A stretch of DNA of 37,572 nt from Ectocarpus siliculosus (Eukaryota > Sar > Phaeophyceae > Ectocarpales > Ectocarpaceae): contig FN649742.1 in assembly GCA_000310025.1 (NCBI GenBank), positions 4,806,950 to 4,844,521 on the forward strand, read 5' to 3'. Position 1 is the first letter of the stretch; each line of letters opens with the position of its first letter. The notes below the pieces were generated by a model, which searched no databases, had not been told where the DNA came from, and saw only the letters and a program-made list of their open reading frames with translations. Of the stretch, positions 3,401-31,343 are shown in pieces. A program made the translations under genes and the position numbers.

Positions 3401-6400
3401 ACCAGACCGATGTCAACCTCCACTTCCTTCGCGATAGGGGAGTCGTTGTGGTGCGAGGTCGGCAGAAGCATGCCGAAAGCGCGGCGACCTTACTGCTATC
3501 GAAGCTGCACGGAGGAGGGGAACTCGATGAGAACGGGGTGAGAGAGGTAGATAGAGAGAGGGACACAGAGAGAGAGAGAGAGATGGAGAGAGTGGATGAG
3601 GTTTAGACGGACAGTATGAAAAAGAGGGAAAGGGAGAGAGGGAAAGAGAGAAAGAGATTGTTGTTTGCAACGCTGCTTTCAAGACCGCAAGAGTTCGTCA
3701 TGCGCAACCGAAGGAAGAAGGGAACACGAAGGACACACCGGGGCTTGGATGTAGAACACGCGTGTTTCTTTCAGGAGGTGTGCTGACATAAAAGCAGAAA
3801 ACATGGCTGCTGGGCAAGTGCACTAGGCGAGATACAGGCGAACAATGCACCGGTTGCTCTCTCGCCCTCGTTCGATTCTTGTTTCACCAACGCTTTTCCA
3901 ACCCCCAACCCCCCTCTCCCCGTCCGCGCACGTCTTCCGTTCTCTCCCCCCTTCTCTCCGCTTCCCCGCCCACCTAGATGCCTCCTTGTTCAGTGTCCTT
4001 GGTTGCCGTGGCCCCATCCGGCATGGAGGTCCTCACGGCTCGCGGCCGTCTGCACCTCAAGAGGCTGTCCGCCGACACCGGGACCGAGATGCACGTTATC
4101 CCCCCTGCGTCCGTGGTTAGGATCAGAGCCCGGGGCCGGGACCCCGAGGCCGTGGCGGAGGCCACGAGGGCCCTCCTGAGGTTCGTAGGGGGCCACCGGG
4201 CGGAGGTCTTCTTGGACCTAGCCAAGGTTGAGTCGGACGCGTCTCCTCCGGCTCGACGTTCTTCCAGCGGCGGCGGCGGCGGCGGCGGCGGTAGCGAAGG
4301 CAAGGCCGGAGCGGAGGCGATGCAAGAGGTGGTCAGCGGTGGCGGCGGCGGCGGCGGCGGCGTTGGCCGGGACGGAGGTGTCGGGGCTAGCGCGGCTGAC
4401 GCCAAGAAGGCCGTACGGACGCCGGTAAGCTCGGTGAGCAACAAGATCATTCGGCGGACGGTGAAGCTCCATGGCTGCGAGGCGGAGTTTGTAGCGGCCC
4501 CGCCGCCGTCGCCCCCGGTGTCCTCCAACACCGCTAGCGGCGGCAGGGGTGGCGGCAACGGCAACGGTAACCGCCGCGGCGGGAGTGGTGCAGGAGCAGA
4601 AAGACACCGCCACGGCCCTCACAAGAGCGGGCCTGGCCGTCAAGATGCCGGCGGTCGAGGAGCGGGGGTCGGGGCCACCACAACCGCCGACGATACCCAC
4701 GACGACGGGTCACTGTCGGCGGTGACCGGTGTGTCGTACACTTCGTCGGCGCCGGCGAGAAGGGTTATGATTCGGGGCCTGCCCGGACTGGTGGATAAGG
4801 CTCGAGACGCGCTGGTTGCTCTGGTTTTGGGACGGGAGGATGGCGAGGTGGCGCTGGGGGAGGAGGCTGCGGCGGCTTTGGGAGCGGACAGCTGGAGGAA
4901 AATTCAGGTGAGAGGAGCATGTGTTTGTGATCCATGCGGCATTGTTTTTTTGGTGGTCCTTGTTGGGTGTTGCTTCCGTGCACGAGGCCGTTCTCTCCTT
5001 CCAAGTTGGTTTGCTTTGTCCTTACATTACTTCGTTTGCCTTGGTGCTGATCCATGCGGCGTTTTTGTTTGGTATTTTTTTTTGTTGCCACCTGCACGAG
5101 AACTTTGAAGGTGGCATTGCTCCGACCTGCTCGTGCGCATGTTCCCGCTCTTCGGTTCGTACCCTCGTCCTCAGGATTCAAGCGAAAGGGTCACCATTAC
5201 CCCGGATAGGTCGAGGTGCTCGCTTCGGGTCTCCGGCCCACCGGCGGCGGTTGAGGCGTGCAGGAGGGAGTTGTACACCATGCTCGCGGACGCGTTTCGG
5301 GGAGAGTTTGTCGCGGTGAGTGTCGTTAGTCTGTCTGTCTGTCTGCCTCTCTCGCTGTCTCTCTCTCCAGGTGGTATAATAGCGTCATTCTTCAGTTTCG
5401 GTGGCGACTTATTTTACTTGTTCTTCGCAAGGGAGGTGTTCTTCAGCCGTACGTGCCACGAGTCCCAGTTGAAAATTCAAAGCTTCTCTCGTCTATGCCG
5501 TCGCCTCGGCTCTACCCGGCCGGCATTCTCCCGGTCATGTCAGGGGGAAAGAGGAGAATATTGAAGCAGCCGCGCAGGAGAACATTTCACCCGTCAGACG
5601 GCGTGCTCATCTGCTGTCACGCCGCAGACCAGCCTCCCTGGAGTGAAACCCATGGCATGTACCGCCGCCATGTGACGCCGTGCGCGAAAAGAAGAAGTCG
5701 ACTATTCCATTCGTACGGCGATCTCACGTCAAACTTTCTAAACCACATCGCTTCCCTGCCCACCAGGTGCCCATCCCACGCGAGGCCCTCCACGAGGTAG
5801 CCACCCCCCTTCGCCTTGCCGATGCCGCCGCCGCCGCCGCCGCCGCTACGGCCTCCTCGCCAAGGACCGGCGATGGCAAGCGAACCGCGGCGGCAGCGGG
5901 GCAAATAGCGGAGGTTCTGGGACCTATGGGAGTCGCTGCGGCGGCGTGCGGGTGGCGGGGCGAAGGCAACGTACAGCTCTTGGCCGACTGGCCGTGCTCG
6001 TGCGTTCGTGTGAGGGGGGAAGCAGCGGCCGTGAGCGTGGCGGTGAGATACAGGGAGGGGGGGTGGATTCGGGGGTTGTGTGGGAAGGCTTGGGTGTACA
6101 TCCACTTGTTTGGGCGCCACCGGCGTGTTGAGGGAGTGGTAGCGGGCGGGGGGCCGGGGGATTCGCAGGCCTAGAGCGGGGAGGTGAGGGTGTACTCGTA
6201 GTCGTGCATGCCGTAGTCGTTAGACCATTGACCTCGCATCCTGGGTTCTCACCGGGCCAGGCTCTGACTCACATCACCAAGCGCGAAGCGCCGTGAGGTG
6301 TTCGGCGAGTCGCATCGAGGGTGCGCTGCATCCTGCTAAGGATGTTCGGCATCTTGTATAGAGTGGGGAGGGGGGGTGGGTAATTTGTGGTTGATTGCGG

Positions 6401-9145
6401 ATGGAGGTGTGTCGCTGTGGAGTTGTGCTGCGGTGGAGGCAGTAAGACCGCACCAGTAAGGCCGGTCGCCCTGTGAGATTGCGTGACACAGATGCGCTAT
6501 TCAACTTATCCCATACTCTGAATTGTGCCGGGGGACCGATACAAGGCCGGCCAAATCCCTTGGAACTGTTATGCGGCCTTGTTCAGGGACTACCGTCCGT
6601 GCCGCTTCCCGAAACACCACGGTGCTTTGCCCTTTGCGCTCGGTGCCTGCGCCGCCCCGGTCCGGCGAAAAGCCGGCGTGTGCCGCCCCAGCTCTGCTGG
6701 GATGCGAGGTTTACGGTCTAGCGCCTACAGAAGACGCCTCCACTGTTAGAGGCTCTTGTCTTGCCGGTAGGGTCACCCAACGTCAACCACATATGGGTGA
6801 TAGTGTAGGCTTCTTAACTGAACACCTGTTCACATCGACAACCTCTTCTTTGTGGGATCTTTTTGAGGCTAGTGTATTTACTCCCAGGTTCCCAATGTGA
6901 ATGTGGCGAGTTCTGCGTGTCATGCGTCAAACGAGATCCCCCCCCCCCCCGGCCGCCGCCGCCGCCGCCGCCGTGGCCATGAAACTTCTCGCCCCAACGA
7001 AAACACAAGGTGGGCGAGATCAACACCGCACTGTCGAAGTGGTCAGCCCTGGCCGTTGCCGCGGAGGTCGAGGAGTGGATGGAGCCGGAGCTGTTCGGCA
7101 AGCAGCGCAAGGCCATCAAGAAGCTGTCCCAGAGCATGGGAGGTGTTGTCCTCAACGTCGTCGACGGCGTGTGCAGCGGGAGAGCCGCGTCCGAGGAGGA
7201 GGCTCGGGATGCGACGAGAAAGCTCGAGGAGCGGGTGAGGGAGGGGATACCCCGGTCGATCCGCCGGGGGGGTGCGGGTGGAAGTTGTGGGACGCACAGC
7301 GGTATGCTGGCCCTGTTTTGGCGACCTCTTTTGGACACTGGACACCTTGCTAGCGTTGCTGGGGATGTTTTTTTTTTTGTGGAATGGTTGTGGAGGGACT
7401 GATTGAGGTGGGGCCGGAAGAAGAGGATGGGACCGGGCGTGCCTTTGAGGCGTGGCGGTGTCGTCGAGTGCTGTTGAATGCATTTCTCATTACCTACAAA
7501 GAGCGGGTAAGGCTCGGTCTGATAACATTGTCTTTTCCCAACGGTTGTTCGTGTTTTTCTTCCGGATAAAAAAATCATCGATTGTTGGGCACGAGAAAAC
7601 ATCCCAAAACGGGAGAAACGAACGTGAATTTTTCTTTTCGTGGTCACAAAATTTCAAAATAAGGATAGTCGTGATTTGTGGGGAGAAATCAAGTCGATAA
7701 GAACGTGCCCAACTCGCCCAGAAGACCCACAACATCGCGATAACCTAACCGGTACAGGAGTACGTCTACCGAATCAAGGAGAAGTCATTTACGAATTATT
7801 CAGGCCCTCAGTCCAGAAAAAGTGTTCCCGTTCCGCCGCCGCTCCATCTCTCTCCCTTACTACGCGGAACTTGTCCTGACCACGGTCCCCTCTGCCATCC
7901 GGTCGCGACCGACGACCAAAAAAAAAAAATAGGTGAGCGAGCTACGAGCTAGGCGGGCAGTGGTGCGAGTGCCCCCGGAGGTTGTGACCCGGCTGACAGG
8001 CCGAGGGGGATGTAGCATCGACAAGATCAAGGAGAGAACGCGCGCGACCATACGCATCGGGGAGGGGGTAGGAGGGAACGAGGTTATCATCTGCGGGGAC
8101 CCCTCCGCTGTCGCCGCGGCCAGGCGCGAGGTGAGTGATTTATTCCCGCTGCGCCACTCAGAGTCTGGAGCGCGTACACACCCCTCGAGCTAAAAGTCCG
8201 CGTGTAGTTGGTCGGGAAGATTTGTACATGTTGGTAAGGTGCTTGCTTGTTCGTTGGCGTTCGTGCCTTGTATCGATATTTTCTTTTTACGTCCGTGAAT
8301 AGGCACACCTTCCTCACCGCTCCGTGCTAGGGTGATAGATGGGGTCCCGTTCCGTGAGCACAGCGGGGGAGCAGCACGCAACACGGCTTCACAAGGTGCT
8401 GCCCCGGTGCCACGTATAAATCCCGCCGACGTTTTCGGCCTTCCAGCAGTTGCAGGCCACGACGGCGTTGCGAGGAAGCTGCCCCCGCTAGCAGGTCGTT
8501 ATTTTTTTCCTTGGCGAAACACGCCCTATTACTCCAAAATCCCCGTACTTCTTCAGAAGATAAATCTATCTGGTTATTGTTGGGTGTATGTAGTATGCGA
8601 GTACACTTCACGCGTGACCTCCACTGAAACCTAACCCTACCAACAACGACCTCCATAGGTGGAGGCAATGGCTCGCGGGCCGTCGAAGAGCAGCCCTGCG
8701 GCCCAGGCCCCCAAGGACAGGCAGAGCCCAGACGGCGGCGTTCCTGACGCGGCCGGGGACCCTTCGCCGCTCCTGCCGCCTTCCCCAGGCGAGGGGGTGC
8801 CGCAGACGGGAACCCCGTCGCCCCTGCCCCCATCGCCGCAGAACCAGAACCAGCTGCACGCCGGCAACGCTGCGGGCGGCGGGGGTCAGGATGTTGATCT
8901 GGCGGACCGACGGGGGGGTGAGGCGACGGCAGGTTCGGTGAAGACGGCAGGTGCGGTCCCGAAGCTCGACGGCGAGGGTTACCGCCGCGGCGTAGAAGAC
9001 CAAGAACGGGTTGCCGAAGAGCAGCCCCCAGTCGTGACCCCGCCGGGCGGCAGCGGCGACGCGCGACAGGCGCCGGGGCCGAGCGCCTCGGGATCGACCA
9101 GGCGCCCGCTTGGCGATCGTGATGCCTCCTCCAGCGGGGGCGGCA

Positions 9146-9202
<57 letters not shown>

Positions 9203-14055: not shown

Positions 14056-16822
14056 TCACGACGAAGCCTTCATCCAGGGGTGACGAAGGAGATTCTCGAC
14101 GCTGGGCCGTTCCGCGGGGGAATGGCGCAGGCAGGACTGGATCAAACCCGCAGCCTGTAGATTTTTGGTGTTTGGGGACGACGTCGGGATTAGAGAGCGA
14201 CGACTCACTCGAGCACCGGTGCAGCGAACATGAGTCGAAAACGCCATCGTCAACATTGGACTACGGGAAATAGGGGGCTTTCCACGTTGTTGACGCCCGC
14301 TTACTACCCGAAGCCTCCGCACGCAGATTGTTGCTCAAACGGGTAAGCCCTCTCGGCGAACAACACTAACCAAATTCTTCGCGCTCGTATCAATACCACC
14401 GAACAGCGCTTTCAGTAATAGCTGGAGGTATGCGAGACAAATTCCAACACCGATATGGGAGACTTAACCCCTGCTTCCCTACATGGCTTACCTCCGGTGA
14501 CAAGGAGATCCCCCACGCCGACAGAAGGTCCACGAGTCTCTCTTCGACGGCCACGATCTGACACCGCTGATCCTGGGATGGAAGAGCCATCTCGAACGGC
14601 GGAACTCCTGTCAGCATGCTGCACGGCGAGAGTTACACCGGGGGGGGGCGGGGGTTGAAAGCATGCCGACAATGTCGGGTTTAGTGCCCACGCTTACTCC
14701 GCCTTGAAAGGGTAAAGTTTGGGCAGGGGAAAAGGATACCCCTCGCGGGTGCACGGGCTACTTTCGCGCGCAAGAAACCTTGTGCTCAACATATACCTAC
14801 CTACCGTTCACCAAACGAGCACAGCACCCTCAACTCCAAAAAAGTATAAGATTTTTAGCTTGAAACTGCAGCAGCAGCAGCAGCAACAGCAGCGGCAGGA
14901 ACAGCAGCAGCAAATACTTACACGAAGAGCAGGACGCCGCACGCCCACACGTCCACGGCGAACCCGTCGAATCCGCTCGAGACCGAGCTCGACAAGACCT
15001 CCGGGGCGATGTAGAACGGCTTGCCGCAGGGGCCCTGGGGAAGGAGAACCCTGGCCCCGCCGTCAGGCTTCTGAGGAATGCGCAAAGCCAGCCCGAAGTC
15101 GACAAGCTTCACGGTGTTCCCTTCGTCCAGCAGCAGGTTTTCAAGGCTCACGTCCCTAATATTGGTAGGCATTTGTCGACGGAAGAAAGGGAAGGGTGTC
15201 GGATAACGCAGAGCAAGACAGGTTGAAAAAAATAACACCATTCCATTGATTGATTGCCGATGATTTGGCGTACAAGAACACCGCAAAGTATTTTGTTACA
15301 GATGCTACAGTAGCGGCAACACAACCAGCAGGGTGGTGCATACTGGTAGTTCATCCCCCAACGCGCTATTTTACTGGCGAGAACCCGTCTTCCCACCGTT
15401 CGTTGTTGGTTTCGGTTTCCAACACGACATGGGCAAAGGTAGAGACATGGCACCGTGCTTTTTCTCTCTTTTTTCATCTTAAAAACCCCCGTCCCAGCGA
15501 TTGCTGCTCGCCGTTGGCAGTGCCGTACTCACCGGTGGCAGACCCCGTGGATCTTGAGGTGGCGAAGCGCGTGCAACACCTGGCGGAACAGCGGTCGCGC
15601 CTCGCCCTCCTCATACCGACCCCGGTCCGTCAGCGCGTCGAAAACCTCGCCCCCGCTGTAGAACGGCGTGACGATGTAGATGCTGTCCGAATCCCAGAGT
15701 GCCTGTGTAGTAAACAAGACGATCGACGGCCCCTCAATACATATACATCTCGCACAGGTGCTTTCGCAGCCACCAAAACAGATATCTTCGCCAGAAAAAA
15801 ATAAAGGCCCTTGCAAATTTAGGCAGTTTTTTCCCCTGTCGGGTACTACACGTAAACAATTTGCACTGCTGCGCCACCTCCGCTGATTACGCATAGCGCC
15901 CGCTAACAACACGACAGATGGAAAGATTGGTCGCACGGCAGCCAGCCATAAAAAAACTTCTATTTCCTTGTCATGCCGCTGCCCTTTGGTACGATACACG
16001 ACAGTGTATGATTTCTGACCTCGGTGCAAGGAAGGACGTTCGGGTGGCTCGACAGGAACTGCAAAGCGGCCACTTCCCGCAGCGGATCCTCGTATGTCCT
16101 GCCCTGCACCTCTCGCAGCTTGTCCAAGTTGAGCTCCTGCGAGATTTTAGGCACATACATGCATGGGGCAATATCATCTCAAGGGCGAAATAGTGCAACG
16201 GTACAAGAACCGGCGCTCAAACGGGTTGCTCCTCCGCGATTGTATTTTTTCGTTGGAAATCACTTCATTTTTTTCGAGATGCCGACGACGTATTTATGCA
16301 CACCCTTCGCGGCAACCACACTCTCAGCAACCGCGAAAGAACAATAACAAAATCGAGAACACCGAATCGAACACCAGTGTAGGCATTTCGTCTCCGGCAC
16401 GAGCATAGCAACTTGAAGCAACAGAAAAAACTAATCACCTTGATGGCGAAGTACGCTGGCGATGATGCCGCGGCTTCTTCGTCTGTAACCTCAACAGCAC
16501 GCAACACCTCTCCGAACTGGCATTCCCTGGAGGAGCTGACCGCCCTCCAGCGGCGGCCTGTCGCCTGCGATCTGAGGGTGTAGCTTTCGTTCTCCATCAC
16601 CTTGAGGGCCTTGGAGAAGGTAGGCATCGGGAAGCTAAGCTGGTCGTACGTTTCGGCGGAAGAAGAAGAAGCGGCGGTTGCGGTCGACGACGCCTGTGCT
16701 GAGGTCGTGGTGCTGCGAACCTTGGGCGGTGGGGCTGAGCTGTGCCGCTTGATCTTGATATTGTCTTCACGCCAGGAGGCGAGCAGCCGCCTGCTGTGCT
16801 GTTGCTGTGCTGGAAGAGCCAT
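14056..16822 (-). CDS. serine/threonine protein kinase (six exons)
   Basis: Exons in transcript order are 16822-16439, 16136-16020, 15702-15533, 15155-14922, 14618-14492 and 14154-14056. Phases agree at every junction, giving 376 residues and a TGA at 14056-14058. Kinase landmarks: FGEV of the nucleotide loop at about 103-106, the AIK lysine at 128, the helix-C Glu at about 149 (REVAAL), hinge IYIVTPFYSGGEVFDAL, HRD at 223-225 (HRDVSLEN), DFG at 243-245, APE at 274-276, then DVWACGVLLFVMLTG and the C-lobe ending ENLLRHPWM. The first two glycines of the usual GXGXXG loop are absent (RECQFGEV), and the catalytic-loop lysine of HRDxK is Ser. The N-terminal 70 residues are Ser/Thr/Ala-rich and probably disordered. 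The fold is closest to calcium/calmodulin or SNF1-like kinases by general form; the substrate is unknown. An alternative in-frame start lies at 16846. Confidence 0.85.
14872..14911. repeat. CAG/CTG-rich microsatellite beside a splice donor
   Basis: Interrupted CAG triplets lie within the kinase intron, ending just inside the donor (minus-strand GTAAGT at 14916-14921). It is intronic. On the transcribed strand it reads CTG repeats. Confidence 0.85.
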
Positions 16823-16846
16823 TGCCGTCCTCCTGCTGGCGTTCAT

Positions 16847-17636
16847 ACAAGTGTGGAAGGGGAGAACATACCCCACGTGTAATACTGTTTTGTGAGCTCG
16901 ACACGTGGGTGAGTGTGTGCATGCATGCGAATTCGCGGCGACGCCTCCTTCATCCGACATGTTGGATGATGAGAGAGCGAATTTGCAGATGACATGAATC
17001 GCGGAAAAAACAGCCAACCAAAGGAAGGGGCGTGCAGCTCAGCAGTGACCAACCTATTGCCACCAAACATATAACGACCTAGGATAAAGTAAGGAAGTGG
17101 TGGCCATGTGGCCATGTTCTGAGAGGCGACGAACTGTGGCGCAGCGGCAGTGATTGCAGTCCACGCAGAGCGTTCTCGTGCAAGTTCTCAACGAATTTGC
17201 AAATCCGCTGTTGTTGGCAAACTAAATAATCGTGTGCAGACTTTTTCTCCGTGCTGAGGAGGATGCCCCGCCAAGACGCACTCCGGTGCTACACCACAAG
17301 CCATGCTGGGCTCACGAGTTTTCATGCTGCCATTACTAGATGCAGTAGGACACAACTATTACATGCGATGCTCTAGATCCACGAGGAGCACGTGAGGATG
17401 TTGGCAAACACGACCCACCTTGACCTCTCTTGAATCCTTGATGCGGACGGCACGGCCCTTGAGTCGCTCGCGCTGGGGATATCAGACGTCAAACTAGTCT
17501 CCTCCCTACCTATTCTAGAATTGTAGGTTATATCGGTCCAGGCTGGCGAAAGGTGGCGTGGAAAGTGAGAGATAGAACGCGAGAAAAAGAGAGCCTGTTG
17601 GGAGAACGGAGCAGGCCGCGCGCGATTTAAACTTCG
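16847..17636. promoter_or_regulatory. divergent intergenic region between kinase and NTH1 genes
   Basis: Roughly 0.8 kb separates the outermost in-frame start of the minus-strand kinase (16846) from the earliest possible start of the plus-strand NTH1 gene (17637). With the genes diverging, promoters and 5' untranslated regions of both must lie here. I cannot identify a TATA box or a specific factor site with confidence. Confidence 0.5.
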
Positions 17637-26061: not shown

Positions 26062-26170
26062 TTCGAGCGTGGTTTCGAGCGTGGTGCAGTGTTCGTGGCG
26101 CGTGGTTTGCCTGGTTCACCACACGCACGCGTGGTTTGCTGGGTTCACCACACGCGTGGTTTGCTTGGTC
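26062..26170 (+). repeat. minisatellite of a CGCGTGGTTTGCTGGGTTCA-like unit
   Basis: Two short copies of GTTTCGAGCGTG come first. Three copies of a 24-28 base unit with the core CGTGGTTTGC(C/T)(T/G)GGTTCACCACAC follow, the last one partial. It is non-coding. Confidence 0.85.
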
Positions 26171-27959: not shown

Positions 27960-30900
27960 GTGCCGACCATACAGCTCACAAACCATTTCTTTCCCTCTCT
28001 CACTCGCTTTCATGGCGACATTAGGCCACCTTCAACTGTGGTTCAAGAAGACCGGGGAAAAGCCACCGCCATGTGGGTAGTTCTGCTCGCCTTGTTTGTT
28101 GCATACGTTGGCTATCTCGGCGTCAACGCTTCGGAAATGCGGAAGAATCCACCGGTCCAAATAAGGCGTAAGGTATGAATCTCGTCGTATGTGGAGTGGA
28201 ATGCAGGGTACTCGGGGGGCAAGGTCCCAACTTGTACGTTGATCATTCATGGCCATCGCACCCTTAACAGTTAGTTTTGCCTCTACCCGTTGTCATGCCC
28301 GACCAGATCGAGAAAAGTTGGTGCCTTGAATAATTTGTTGTCCGAGACGAGATTTATGGCAGTCGAAACCAAAGTGTTGTGCTCACCAGAAACACCACCG
28401 ATTTCCATTTTTTCAACCGCATCAGGAGGAGCCTTTCCCACTACCAGATGTAGTGCTCTGCCCCTCAGCTGGGGACGGCTGCGACGCCGACGATGGCTTG
28501 GACTGTTTGCCGATGAATTGGTACATGTCGACTGTCGAGGTGAGCCCAGAAAGAGTTCAAAATAAATTTGTTTGCTCTCTGGTACGATGGAAACTTCGTG
28601 AAATACTGCGTCCAGCAACACCTTTGTGGTTGTGTATTCAACGCTGAATACTGCTTTCGCCAAAAGGCTTGATTCGGATAGGAGCCCTACGGTTCCACCA
28701 ATATTGTGGTTTAACTCTAAGCGTGTGTGCTTTGAAACAACAATCTATCCCAAGCTTACTGCATGTTGCTTAGATGATTGTCCAACCATGCGATGTTGAC
28801 AAGTGTCCACCATGCATACACTTTTATTTGTTTCTGCCTTTTTAGTTGGGTTAGGGTCCGCGTGCTCGACGTTGAGCTGCTAGACTTGACCATATTTCCG
28901 TCCCCATGTTCGCCTTGGGCCTTCCCCTTTCGCACGTTTACGTGGCTCCTCGTCGACATGCGACGGAAAGGGCCTTTCGGGATGCAACGACTACTTCGCG
29001 CCAACTCCCGCGCCAACTCCCGCCCCAACACAGGCTCCGACTATCGCCCCCGCGGTGGGTGCGGCGCCCCCGACCGGTGGCTACTATTCTGATGATTTTT
29101 ACTCGTATAACTCAGGTCGTGATTTTTCAGATGATTCGAGTGCATCACCTGGAGATGACGGTTTTGAGGCAACGCCTTCGCCGGTGGTGGTGCCGTCTAT
29201 CCGCGTCCAAGTGGCGACAAGGGCAAACGAGTTGTGCCCGAGAGTACCCCTATCGGAGTGCGCCATTGACTACGATGGTGTCGAGGCTGGGGATGTGCAC
29301 TCACTGCATGCTTCCTTTTATGTGAGTCGCCTCTTCTCACGCGAATATATGGCGCGCTCTTGTTCCAAGACTAGTACATAGTTTTGCGTACGTTTTTGCG
29401 AAAGGTTTTGCGTGTTGTGACAGCTGTGTCTGATGCACCGCACATGGACTTGCCATGCTGAACTTTGTCACTTGGCTGTTGGCTGTTGACCGTTGATGTT
29501 ACTCAACTGAGACGGCGTGAGCCCGAAAGAAACTTGAGGAAAACACCATATACACTACATGTGATCGGATGCTTGACCGGTTGAACGTTTCTGCCGCGAT
29601 TTGCTCCATACGATCTTGTTTCTACTGCACAACGTCAAAGGTTCTGTGGAACGACACGGTTTCCCCCACGCCTGTGAGCAGTGCTCGACGATTTATCAAC
29701 ATGTTCTTTGTCGATGAAGAAACTGCGGTTACTGATGCGGTGGTGGCCGTCAGACTGCCGTACGACCGGGTCAACATTACCGGCACGGACCCGTTCACGT
29801 TTTTGTCGAATGATGTGGTACGTTTCCTTAAGTCGCGATTGTAGTCCCCCAGTTCATCCAAAATCAGCTGCACTCGCGTCCCATGAAGTAGTGCGTTCGA
29901 CGCCGTGCAAGCGTTGCCTCACCTTCACTGTCGCCGTACTGTCCAGAACACGTGATTGCGCTGGTTTCAATCGTTTCATAGTCGGGTCATTTTGTGCCGA
30001 CTACCATCCCGTCCATTGCGTCACAACCGACAGGTTCTGAGCAGTCTCTCAATACGTGCCCCTCAACTCCGACGGCGAAATATGATCGTGTTATTTCTAA
30101 CTAGTATCCCGTCCATTGCATCACAACTGACAGATTCTGAGCATGTCGCAATACGTGCACCTCAACTACGACGGCAATGTGGGATCCACGGAGCGAACCT
30201 ACACTCAGGTTTGTTCGGATTAGGGTGTTGGCTGGTGCATCTGTTCCGTCGGCCGAGCCATTGAGCACAAGCGATATTTTGGCACAGTTTCAACAAGACT
30301 ATGGATGCGTGTTGGAGAGTGTTTGCCAAATAACACGCCTCGTTTAGGACCCTGACTGTGTGAGGCATGAGTGGTTTCAAACGTCAACGTTTCAAACATA
30401 TCAATACACAGGCGACAACGACCGCACAGCACACGCTTCAGCTGGACACGTTTGAGGGAAAATCGTATGAGGGAGCCCTGCTGTACGTTACGTTAAGCGT
30501 GAACACGTTCGCCTATCAGTCCATCGAGGAGGTTGATCCCGTCGACTGGGGGACCCTGCTTGGGAGCGCCGGTGGCATGTGGGGTAAGATTGATTGCTTC
30601 TGGTTCTCCTCTTGTGCATGTGCATGCTGTTTCACCAGGCATGCGGATGCTATTACTCCCACCAACCAAGGACGTTTAACCGATGCCTTCCAAACTCCTC
30701 ATAGGACACGTTTTCGTGTTTTCCTGCTGTTCGGCGTAGTTCGACGGTTCTTTTGAGGTCAAGGCGCCATTGTTGTGTTCTCCCTAACGTACTGCCCAGC
30801 TTCCTCGATTATTTAACGACTGCTTTTTTAGGAATCACAGAATGGTTATCAACAGACCATTCGAGAAAGAACAGCGTCACCCAGCACTATCTCTTTGATT

Positions 30901-31343
30901 TCATCCGGAGTTTTCATTTGGAAACGGAGCAAGCAGATTTGATGGATGTAGACTATCCTCTCTGCGTTTTTTGGGGCGGAAAGTGAGCGCTTTTCGTGTC
31001 ATTGCGATCCGAGTTAACATCACCACCCTACTCTACCACCCGATTCCTACTCCTGTTATGCTTTCTCAGTGGCAGTCGTTTTGTCTGCGTCACCCATCTG
31101 ATGTGCTGCTTCGTAATGATAATTGGGGTCGTACCAGATATTCCAATAGCTGTGCAATACTTACTCTCGATGCGACCCGATACACATACATCGCTTTGCC
31201 CCACCTCTGCTCGGCTATGTACAGAAATAATCTGCTTTGCGTTCGCAGCCTGCTTTGTCGCAAGTCAAATGGTGGGTCCTGACAAGAAATGGGGGTGGAA
31301 GACGTTCGGCGGCATTTGCAGAGGAGTGCGCAACAAGACTTGA
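27960..31343 (+). CDS. two-transmembrane, DEG/ENaC (amiloride-sensitive channel)-like protein
   Basis: Predicted exons are 27960-28172, 28426-28539, about 28971-29321, 29641-29817, 30134-30208, 30412-30583 and 31225-31343. They join in consistent phase, giving about 406 residues and a TGA. Order: a cytosolic segment with a His-Gly pair at about residues 18-19 (SLTRFHGDI), a first membrane helix at about 39-55 (WVVLLALFVAYVGYLGV), and the post-helix pattern NPPVQI...FPLPDVVLC (F75-P76, C83). A large ectodomain with a Pro/Thr-rich linker (APTPAPTPAPTQAP) follows. Then come YVTLSVNTFAYQSIEEV, DWGTLLGSAGGMW and a second hydrophobic helix (EIICFAFAACFVASQMV) near the C-terminus. His-Gly before TM1, FPxxxxC after it and LL..xGG before TM2 match the ASC/DEG/ENaC family, known as trimeric cation channels. 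The classic G/S-X-S filter is not obvious. The third exon's start (GGAAAG acceptor) and the last junction are the weakest points. Confidence 0.6.
28971..29321 (+). CDS. ectodomain exon with Pro-Thr-Ala-rich linker
   Basis: After a probable acceptor at 28970 the frame reads GLSGCNDYFAPTPAPTPAPT, then GGYYSDDFYSYNSGRDFSDD, then a more ordered part (VVVPSIRVQVATRANELCPR...ECAIDYDGV) ending SFY|GTGAGT. The TPAP repeats look like an extracellular, probably glycosylated, spacer. In-frame stops at 28881 and 28887 limit how far upstream the exon can extend. Confidence 0.5.
30001..30186 (+). repeat. 100-bp tandem duplication covering an exon acceptor
   Basis: 30001-30087 and 30101-30186 are two related copies, period 100. 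Both contain ATCCCGTCCATTGC, a CTGACAG/CCGACAG acceptor and the start of the channel-gene exon. The second copy is the functional exon (ILSMSQYVHLNYDG). The first has an extra base after TCTGAGC, which shifts its frame, and it has no usable downstream donor, so it is a dead exon copy. Confidence 0.75.

Follow-up and report, generated by a model that had tools for sequence, protein, structure and literature searches.

The stretch of DNA analysed here (the window) comprises 37,572 nucleotides of the Ectocarpus siliculosus genome (contig FN649742.1 of assembly GCA_000310025.1, positions 4,806,950 to 4,844,521 of the forward strand). On its plus strand, at 28025-31343, lies a gene with six recognised exons that encodes two hydrophobic segments, here termed transmembrane segments 1 and 2 (TM1 and TM2). 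A sequence-only reading of the window had assigned this gene to the DEG/ENaC channel family, the ASC superfamily of Pfam (PF00858). We find that it belongs to a large and divergent algal family, one that is likely to be distantly related to ASC and that has no canonical selectivity filter at the aligned place.

The exon limits were taken from a tblastx comparison of the window with its paralog on contig C479 and then set at GT-AG junctions; the start of the first exon was placed at a family-wide acceptor, AG/G at 28023-28025, which precedes the same codon in all nine members with a located TM1 exon (the window included). Four of the five junctions fall at identical residues in the window and C479; in C479, the junction between the second and third exons resisted modelling. 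The last intron, 30584-31224, is of phase 1 and joins GGMW-E to IICFAFAACFVAS (that is, GGMW-E-IICFAFAACFVASQMVGPDKKWGWKTF). It lies two residues after a Gly-Gly pair (GG), and its position and phase are shared by all 18 loci in which the TM2 exon was recognised, with lengths of 193-861 bases. This conserved intron settles the last junction, of which the sequence-only reading had been unsure. An automatic splicer ranked an exon start at 31249 (7.48) above that at 31225 (6.93); the latter was chosen because it gives the homologous TM2 start. The frame ITEWLSTDHS.. (30834-30982, plus strand), which formed the last exon of a first splice model, was rejected, as C479 shows TM2 straight after GGxW. 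That frame is without counterpart among the C479 tblastx matches listed, and, by reading, its donor phase misfits the TM2 exon.

When close paralogs were compared by tblastx with as much as 5.9 kb of additional DNA on the upstream side, no start exon came to light. Two copies on contig C489 gave five weak upstream matches, in several frames and two of them across stops, which we judged non-coding; queries from C33 and the window gave no start-exon match, and a separate upstream comparison returned nothing coding-like beyond the exon already known. An imperfect tandem repeat of about 25-29 bases lies upstream of the gene, at 26099-26169.

Table 1. Exons and motifs of the two-TM gene, in window coordinates
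Feature	Position	Strand	Remarks
CATGGC	28011..28016	+	His-Gly of the sequence-only reading; 3' end of intron, not coding
Exon A (first identified)	28025..28172	+	cytosolic Arg/Lys-rich stretch and TM1; acceptor AG/G, donor AAG/GTATGA
TM1, AMWVVLLALFVAYVGYLGV	28068..28124	+	Kyte-Doolittle (KD) score 2.21; inside the stretch aligned with ASC profile positions 17-75
Exon B	28426..28539	+	post-TM1 motif, first ectodomain cysteines
LPDVVLC	28441..28461	+	P-x4-C motif of the family, counterpart of ASC FPxxxxC
Exon C	28971..29321	+	low-complexity insert rich in PT/S/D; ectodomain block NELCPRVPLSE..DYDG
Tandem repeat	28997..29029		within exon C
Exon D	29641..29817	+	ectodomain VLWNDTVSPTP..LPYDRVN..FLSND; 63% identity to C479 over 27 residues
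Exon E	30412..30583	+	pre-TM2 block, ends LLGSAGGMW; corresponds to what precedes TM2 in ASICs
LLGSAGG	30556..30576	+	directly 5' of TM2; GG invariant in 13/13 aligned members
Exon F	31225..31343	+	Glu at GG+3 (codon split by the intron), TM2 core IICFAFAACFVASQMV at 31227-31274, short basic C-terminal tail, stop 31341-31343

Three protein searches, united, place at least 24 related loci in the 189-Mb assembly: C17 (the window), C479, C68 (2), C26, C11, C4, C70 (2), C489 (9), C3 (2), C6, C33 (2) and C340, all counts being lower bounds. Eighteen of the 23 loci outside the window were cut out and examined. The C479 paralog, the closest relative (best E 3.1e-8 in a search with the first protein model), has the exon order of the window gene, shares its intron positions and is 41% identical in amino acids over 315 aligned codons; over these codons, the proportions of differing sites at the three codon positions are 0.42/0.37/0.65. 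Across the relatives, ectodomain identity to the window protein is 20-41%. In three close paralog pairs, the ratio of nonsynonymous to synonymous substitution rates (dN/dS) is 0.16-0.39 by NG86 and YN00 for the conserved exon cores, and the coding exons are under purifying selection. With 24 loci, conserved introns and dN/dS in this range, chance is excluded as the origin of the gene model.

At least nine copies are clustered on contig C489 (about 594-886 kb, both strands). In the only pair compared there (L018 and L017), most differences are at the third position of the codon, a pattern suggestive of constrained copies that arose by local duplication. One copy of this contig, L019 (C489:588700-595700), has an intact GG exon and no TM2 exon recognised in about 1.35 kb downstream; it may be broken, or its TM2 exon may lie outside the examined stretch, and it is not among the 18 loci whose TM2 exon was recognised. 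Weak matches on C48, C8, C474 and at C11:4968751 (E 0.2-3.6) were left out of the total of 24; that at C48:41163-41255 (minus strand), with 52% identity over 31 residues to the window ectodomain block (E 0.21), is possibly a further relative. TM2 pattern matches in low-complexity DNA were ignored, one model that retains unspliced sequence (L023) was excluded from the alignments A1 and A2, and none of 83 pattern matches on viral contigs was confirmed. EsV-1-7 cysteine repeats are also abundant in the genome, with 880 first-look candidates, of which 150 were scored. The EsV-1-7 domain is strongly expanded in brown algae, and its abundance agrees with the alga-type genome that the sequence-only reading had proposed.

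In all five proteins analysed (the window protein and four paralogs), exactly two hydrophobic segments exceed a KD score of 1.2, and N-glycosylation sequons lie between them. The Cys-containing stretch that the sequence-only reading had described as an ectodomain is present between them and is the putative ectodomain, with six cysteines in the window protein and six in L024. In L024 the ectodomain spans about 260 residues, shorter than in ASIC1, where it comprises roughly 350 residues and about 14 cysteines. With six cysteines against about 14, the algal proteins probably have a smaller disulphide-rich thumb or none at all. The FPxxxxC motif claimed after TM1 stood in part: the literal letters in the window, FPLPDVVLC, read FPx6C and do not fit it, but the homologous LPDVVLC aligns with the F/YPxxxxC of relatives. 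The exon was located by homology in 13 loci, all of which have P-x4-C, the first letter of the motif being F, Y, L (as in the window) or N, as in FPDVALC (C479) and, in other branches, YPDLWVC, YPDTYVC and NPDLWIC. A pattern search adds FPDLAVC (C4), FPYVSVC (C11) and YPHVLVC (C68) at fitting places; three of the 19 examined loci yielded no such motif. The LLGSAGG reported before the second hydrophobic segment is indeed there, followed by the TM2 exon. As most loci were recruited through the pre-TM2 block, the presence of this block in them is partly a matter of selection.

The His-Gly pair reported before TM1 did not survive the gene model, in which its CATGGC is intronic and lies upstream of the acceptor used in all nine members. 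Within 15 upstream codons of the eight other members, HG occurs in none, and two have a stop there.

In the pore region, the sequence-only reading had seen no canonical G/S-x-S after the GG, and this holds for the family: ASIC1 has GAS at GG+7-9, and 0 of 18 TM2 exons have G/S-x-S at these positions. A literal [GS]xS occurs further on in five of the 18, at GG+15 (both C70 copies), GG+16 (C479), GG+17 (L025) and GG+25 (L023). In the C70 copies (L015 and L016) it reads S-A-S at GG+15-17, deeper than the ASC filter, and many other members have small or hydroxyl residues at the same positions; judged from the S-A-S, a shifted filter in the C70 copies is possible. At GG+3, 15 of the 18 exons encode Asp or Glu, the exceptions being Val (C479), Gly (one C68 copy) and Gln (C4), and in 11 of the 18 a proline stands at GG+10, in the middle of TM2. 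The lack of G/S-x-S at its usual place, together with the acidic residue at GG+3 in most members, makes a non-selective or Ca2+-permeable pore more likely than a Na+-selective one.

The likeness to the ASC superfamily is seen at both ends of the chain. ASIC1 and ASIC2 (for example PDB 3ij4 and 6l6p; PF00858) have TM1, P-x4-C, a Cys-containing ectodomain, a pre-TM2 segment, an L-G-x-I-G-G hinge and TM2 in the same order. The Pfam ASC gathering score is 23.6 bits. Of eight paralogs, L024 (28.8 bits, E 8.1e-7) and L025 (27.3 bits, E 2.4e-6) exceed it, and L018, at 19.9 bits, falls short. The best-matching stretch in these proteins covers TM1 and P-x4-C (profile positions about 15-78), and the N-terminal piece of the window protein alone scores 15.0 bits (E 0.013). 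The rejected first model of the window protein matched at the other end of the profile (16.6 bits, residues 264-307 on positions 398-440, the pre-TM2 end). At E up to 1, five of the nine members of alignment A2 match ASC, and every other family is matched by a single member at most. TM1 exons are missing from three of these nine models, and an extra ASC match followed hand correction of the L017 TM1 junction. ASC was matched by none of ten block-shuffled decoys and not by the one reversed decoy.

For the C-terminal end, a profile (A3) built on 13 members and covering the pre-TM2 block and TM2 was compared with 177,635 distinct PDB sequences. Ranks 1-13 are all ASICs (12 ASIC1, 1 ASIC2; E 0.0047-0.023), near-duplicates of one another, followed by two BURRH proteins (0.13, taken as chance), two beta-ENaC chains (0.53) and a diguanylate cyclase (2.4). 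The C-block hidden Markov model (HMM) scores 17.2 bits on chicken ASIC1 at the pre-TM2 residues 378-414, a score reached by 0 of 5000 block-shuffled ASIC1 sequences, and hhalign aligns the same segment of A2 with ASIC1 (E 0.003). Whole-length profiles find ASICs in the PDB at E 0.2-1, in 13 of 14 rows of one search and 13 of 17 of another.

A number of results weigh against kinship with ASC, or against membership of the canonical kind. The window protein itself is below the cut-off (17.2 bits, E 0.0028, residues 11-64 on profile positions 17-75). Five of the eight paralogs, C479 among them, have no ASC match, and four of the nine A2 members have none. The hhalign probability for ASIC1 is only 10%, and the N-block HMM misses ASIC1 altogether (-2.6 bits, a score equalled or exceeded by 1361 of 5000 shuffles). 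When C-terminal pieces are searched in isolation against Pfam, ASC appears for none of six, and one matches LiaF-TM at E 0.0015, probably by chance; as this is better than the ASC E-value of the window protein, the latter's ASC score alone proves nothing. A six-frame search of the genome with PF00858 gave no matches, which we ascribe to the shortness of the exons, and Thermotoga maritima, one of 14 control genomes, passes the ASC cut-off. Finally, compared with canonical members, the G/S-x-S is absent from its place, the Cys-rich thumb is not seen, and HG was not found; the pair in the window is intronic, and a start exon that may carry one was not located. In phmmer searches, LRRC8A, the sole match of the first window model (E 0.26-1.4, covering 56-119), was taken as chance, and the C-terminal half of L024 gave no matches.

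The family call thus rests on both ends together, on their order and on the control sets, and on no single score. On this footing, we regard distant homology of the algal family to the ASC (DEG/ENaC) superfamily as likely. The assignment made by the sequence-only reading is upheld at the level of the family, where two paralogs pass the threshold and the pre-TM2 profile ranks ASICs first, and not by the score of the window protein.

Other features lie elsewhere in the window. On the minus strand, a fragment of a protein kinase is encoded at 15532-16146 (31.5 bits against a Pfam Pkinase cut-off of 31.7, narrowly missed; E 1.6e-7), and a frame at 16268-17038 resembles a kinase N-lobe by eye. On the plus strand, a frame at 3978-5105 that is rich in Gly/Ala repeats has a weak KH-domain match (E 0.0064, below the cut-off) and is perhaps a gene for an RNA-binding protein. 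GGA and GCA arrays at 1552-1618, 9143-9200 and 14868-14912 lie in open frames and give poly-Gly, poly-Ser or poly-Gln runs.

The literature generally treats DEG/ENaC as a family of animals with a few unicellular exceptions (PMC10507113, PMC9822975). PMC10507113 (2023), whose authors call their search non-exhaustive, describes homologs in the heterokont Cafeteria roenbergensis and in Tunicaraptor, a filasterean relative, and names Symbiodinium sp. KB8 as the source of a candidate; there, the heterokont and filasterean homologs cluster with the ASIC and ENaC groups. These organisms, like the alga, supply non-animal members, and Cafeteria is also a stramenopile. Of the algal family, only two of nine models pass the ASC cut-off, a point in which it would differ from the Cafeteria and Tunicaraptor homologs. 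PMC3681921 reports no DEG/ENaC in the pathogenic protozoa examined. As possible protist relatives, PDPNaC1 and BRTNaC1 were discarded, the channels coming from myriapods; PMC7935092 was discarded as an ENaC report, the matched "enac" being part of "enacted". Among the matches listed for open-licence PMC, the part of the literature covered, none describes genes of the DEG/ENaC kind from a brown alga. Thus, DEG/ENaC in heterokonts is not new, and a large divergent brown-algal family without the filter at its place appears to be new within the literature searched.

What such a family does can be read in several ways. The reading that we favor, as somewhat the more probable, is a lineage-expanded two-TM family, distantly homologous to the ASC superfamily, that forms gated cation channels. 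Its main rival, which we consider unlikely, holds that these ASC homologs are no longer channels but two-TM surface receptors or adhesion-like proteins in which the fold was kept and the pore lost. Such a loss would accord with the missing G/S-x-S at GG+7-9 in 18 of 18 exons, the proline at GG+10 in 11 of 18 and the divergence of the ectodomains to 20-41% identity with the window protein, but TM2 and the position of its intron are well conserved, and a simple membrane anchor would hardly be expected to retain an acidic residue at the presumed mouth of the pore, as 15 of 18 exons do. Convergence, in which short motifs and two hydrophobic helices make an unrelated two-TM family look like ASC, is less likely still. 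Taken singly, the matches are short and weak, ASIC1 is not recognised by the N-block HMM by itself, and a C-terminal piece matches an unrelated TM family at E 0.0015, all of which convergence would explain; it would not readily explain why two independent blocks match at collinear positions, why none of ten shuffles matches ASC, or why the PDB matches are specific to ASICs.

The remaining alternatives seem to us very improbable. The window copy could be decaying or mis-assembled within a real family, a view to which the missing start exon lends something, yet all six recognised exons are open with GT-AG junctions, and third codon positions vary most in the comparison with C479; we give it a small chance. 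A canonical Na+-selective, amiloride-blocked DEG/ENaC channel would share the family-level homology but should not lack G/S-x-S at its place, have few cysteines and leave HG unfound, and is scarcely to be expected. P2X receptors are the other two-TM trimeric channel class and are known in some algae. They have the same topology and a large ectodomain, but no sequence match links them to the algal family: for nine proteins, no P2X family is among the Pfam matches listed to an E of 10, no P2X chain is among the PDB matches listed, and the motifs fit ASC instead, so that a P2X-type receptor is the most remote of the readings considered.

For the gated cation channel that we favor, ASIC1 offers a model: it is a trimer with both termini inside, in which a GG hinge couples the extracellular domain to TM2. 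By analogy, three algal subunits would assemble, their extracellular domains would sense a stimulus (a ligand, protons, or osmotic or wall strain), and the ectodomain would pull via the GG hinge on TM2 to open a cation pore. This pore would not be Na+-selective and may pass Ca2+. Gene structure, family, the two TMs, the collinear likeness to ASC at both ends, purifying selection and the lack of the filter at the aligned place are observed; trimeric assembly, conduction, selectivity and gating are inferred.

An expanded, divergent family of this kind in a photosynthetic heterokont is relevant to the question whether the superfamily has an ancient origin or spread by transfer. Its putative pores, which lack G/S-x-S where that ring usually stands, provide a natural means to test what the ring does, and individual members are concrete candidates for the sensory channels of brown algae. 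A bolder and tentative proposal, which we think rather doubtful as it stands, is that brown algae, which evolved complex multicellularity independently, hold a large DEG/ENaC-type mechano- or chemosensory repertoire of their own, with at least 24 genes in the genome analysed, in which an acidic ring at the pore mouth replaced the Na+ filter to yield Ca2+-permeable channels. If this is true, the channels could supply the osmotic, wound or gamete-signalling conductances of brown algae.

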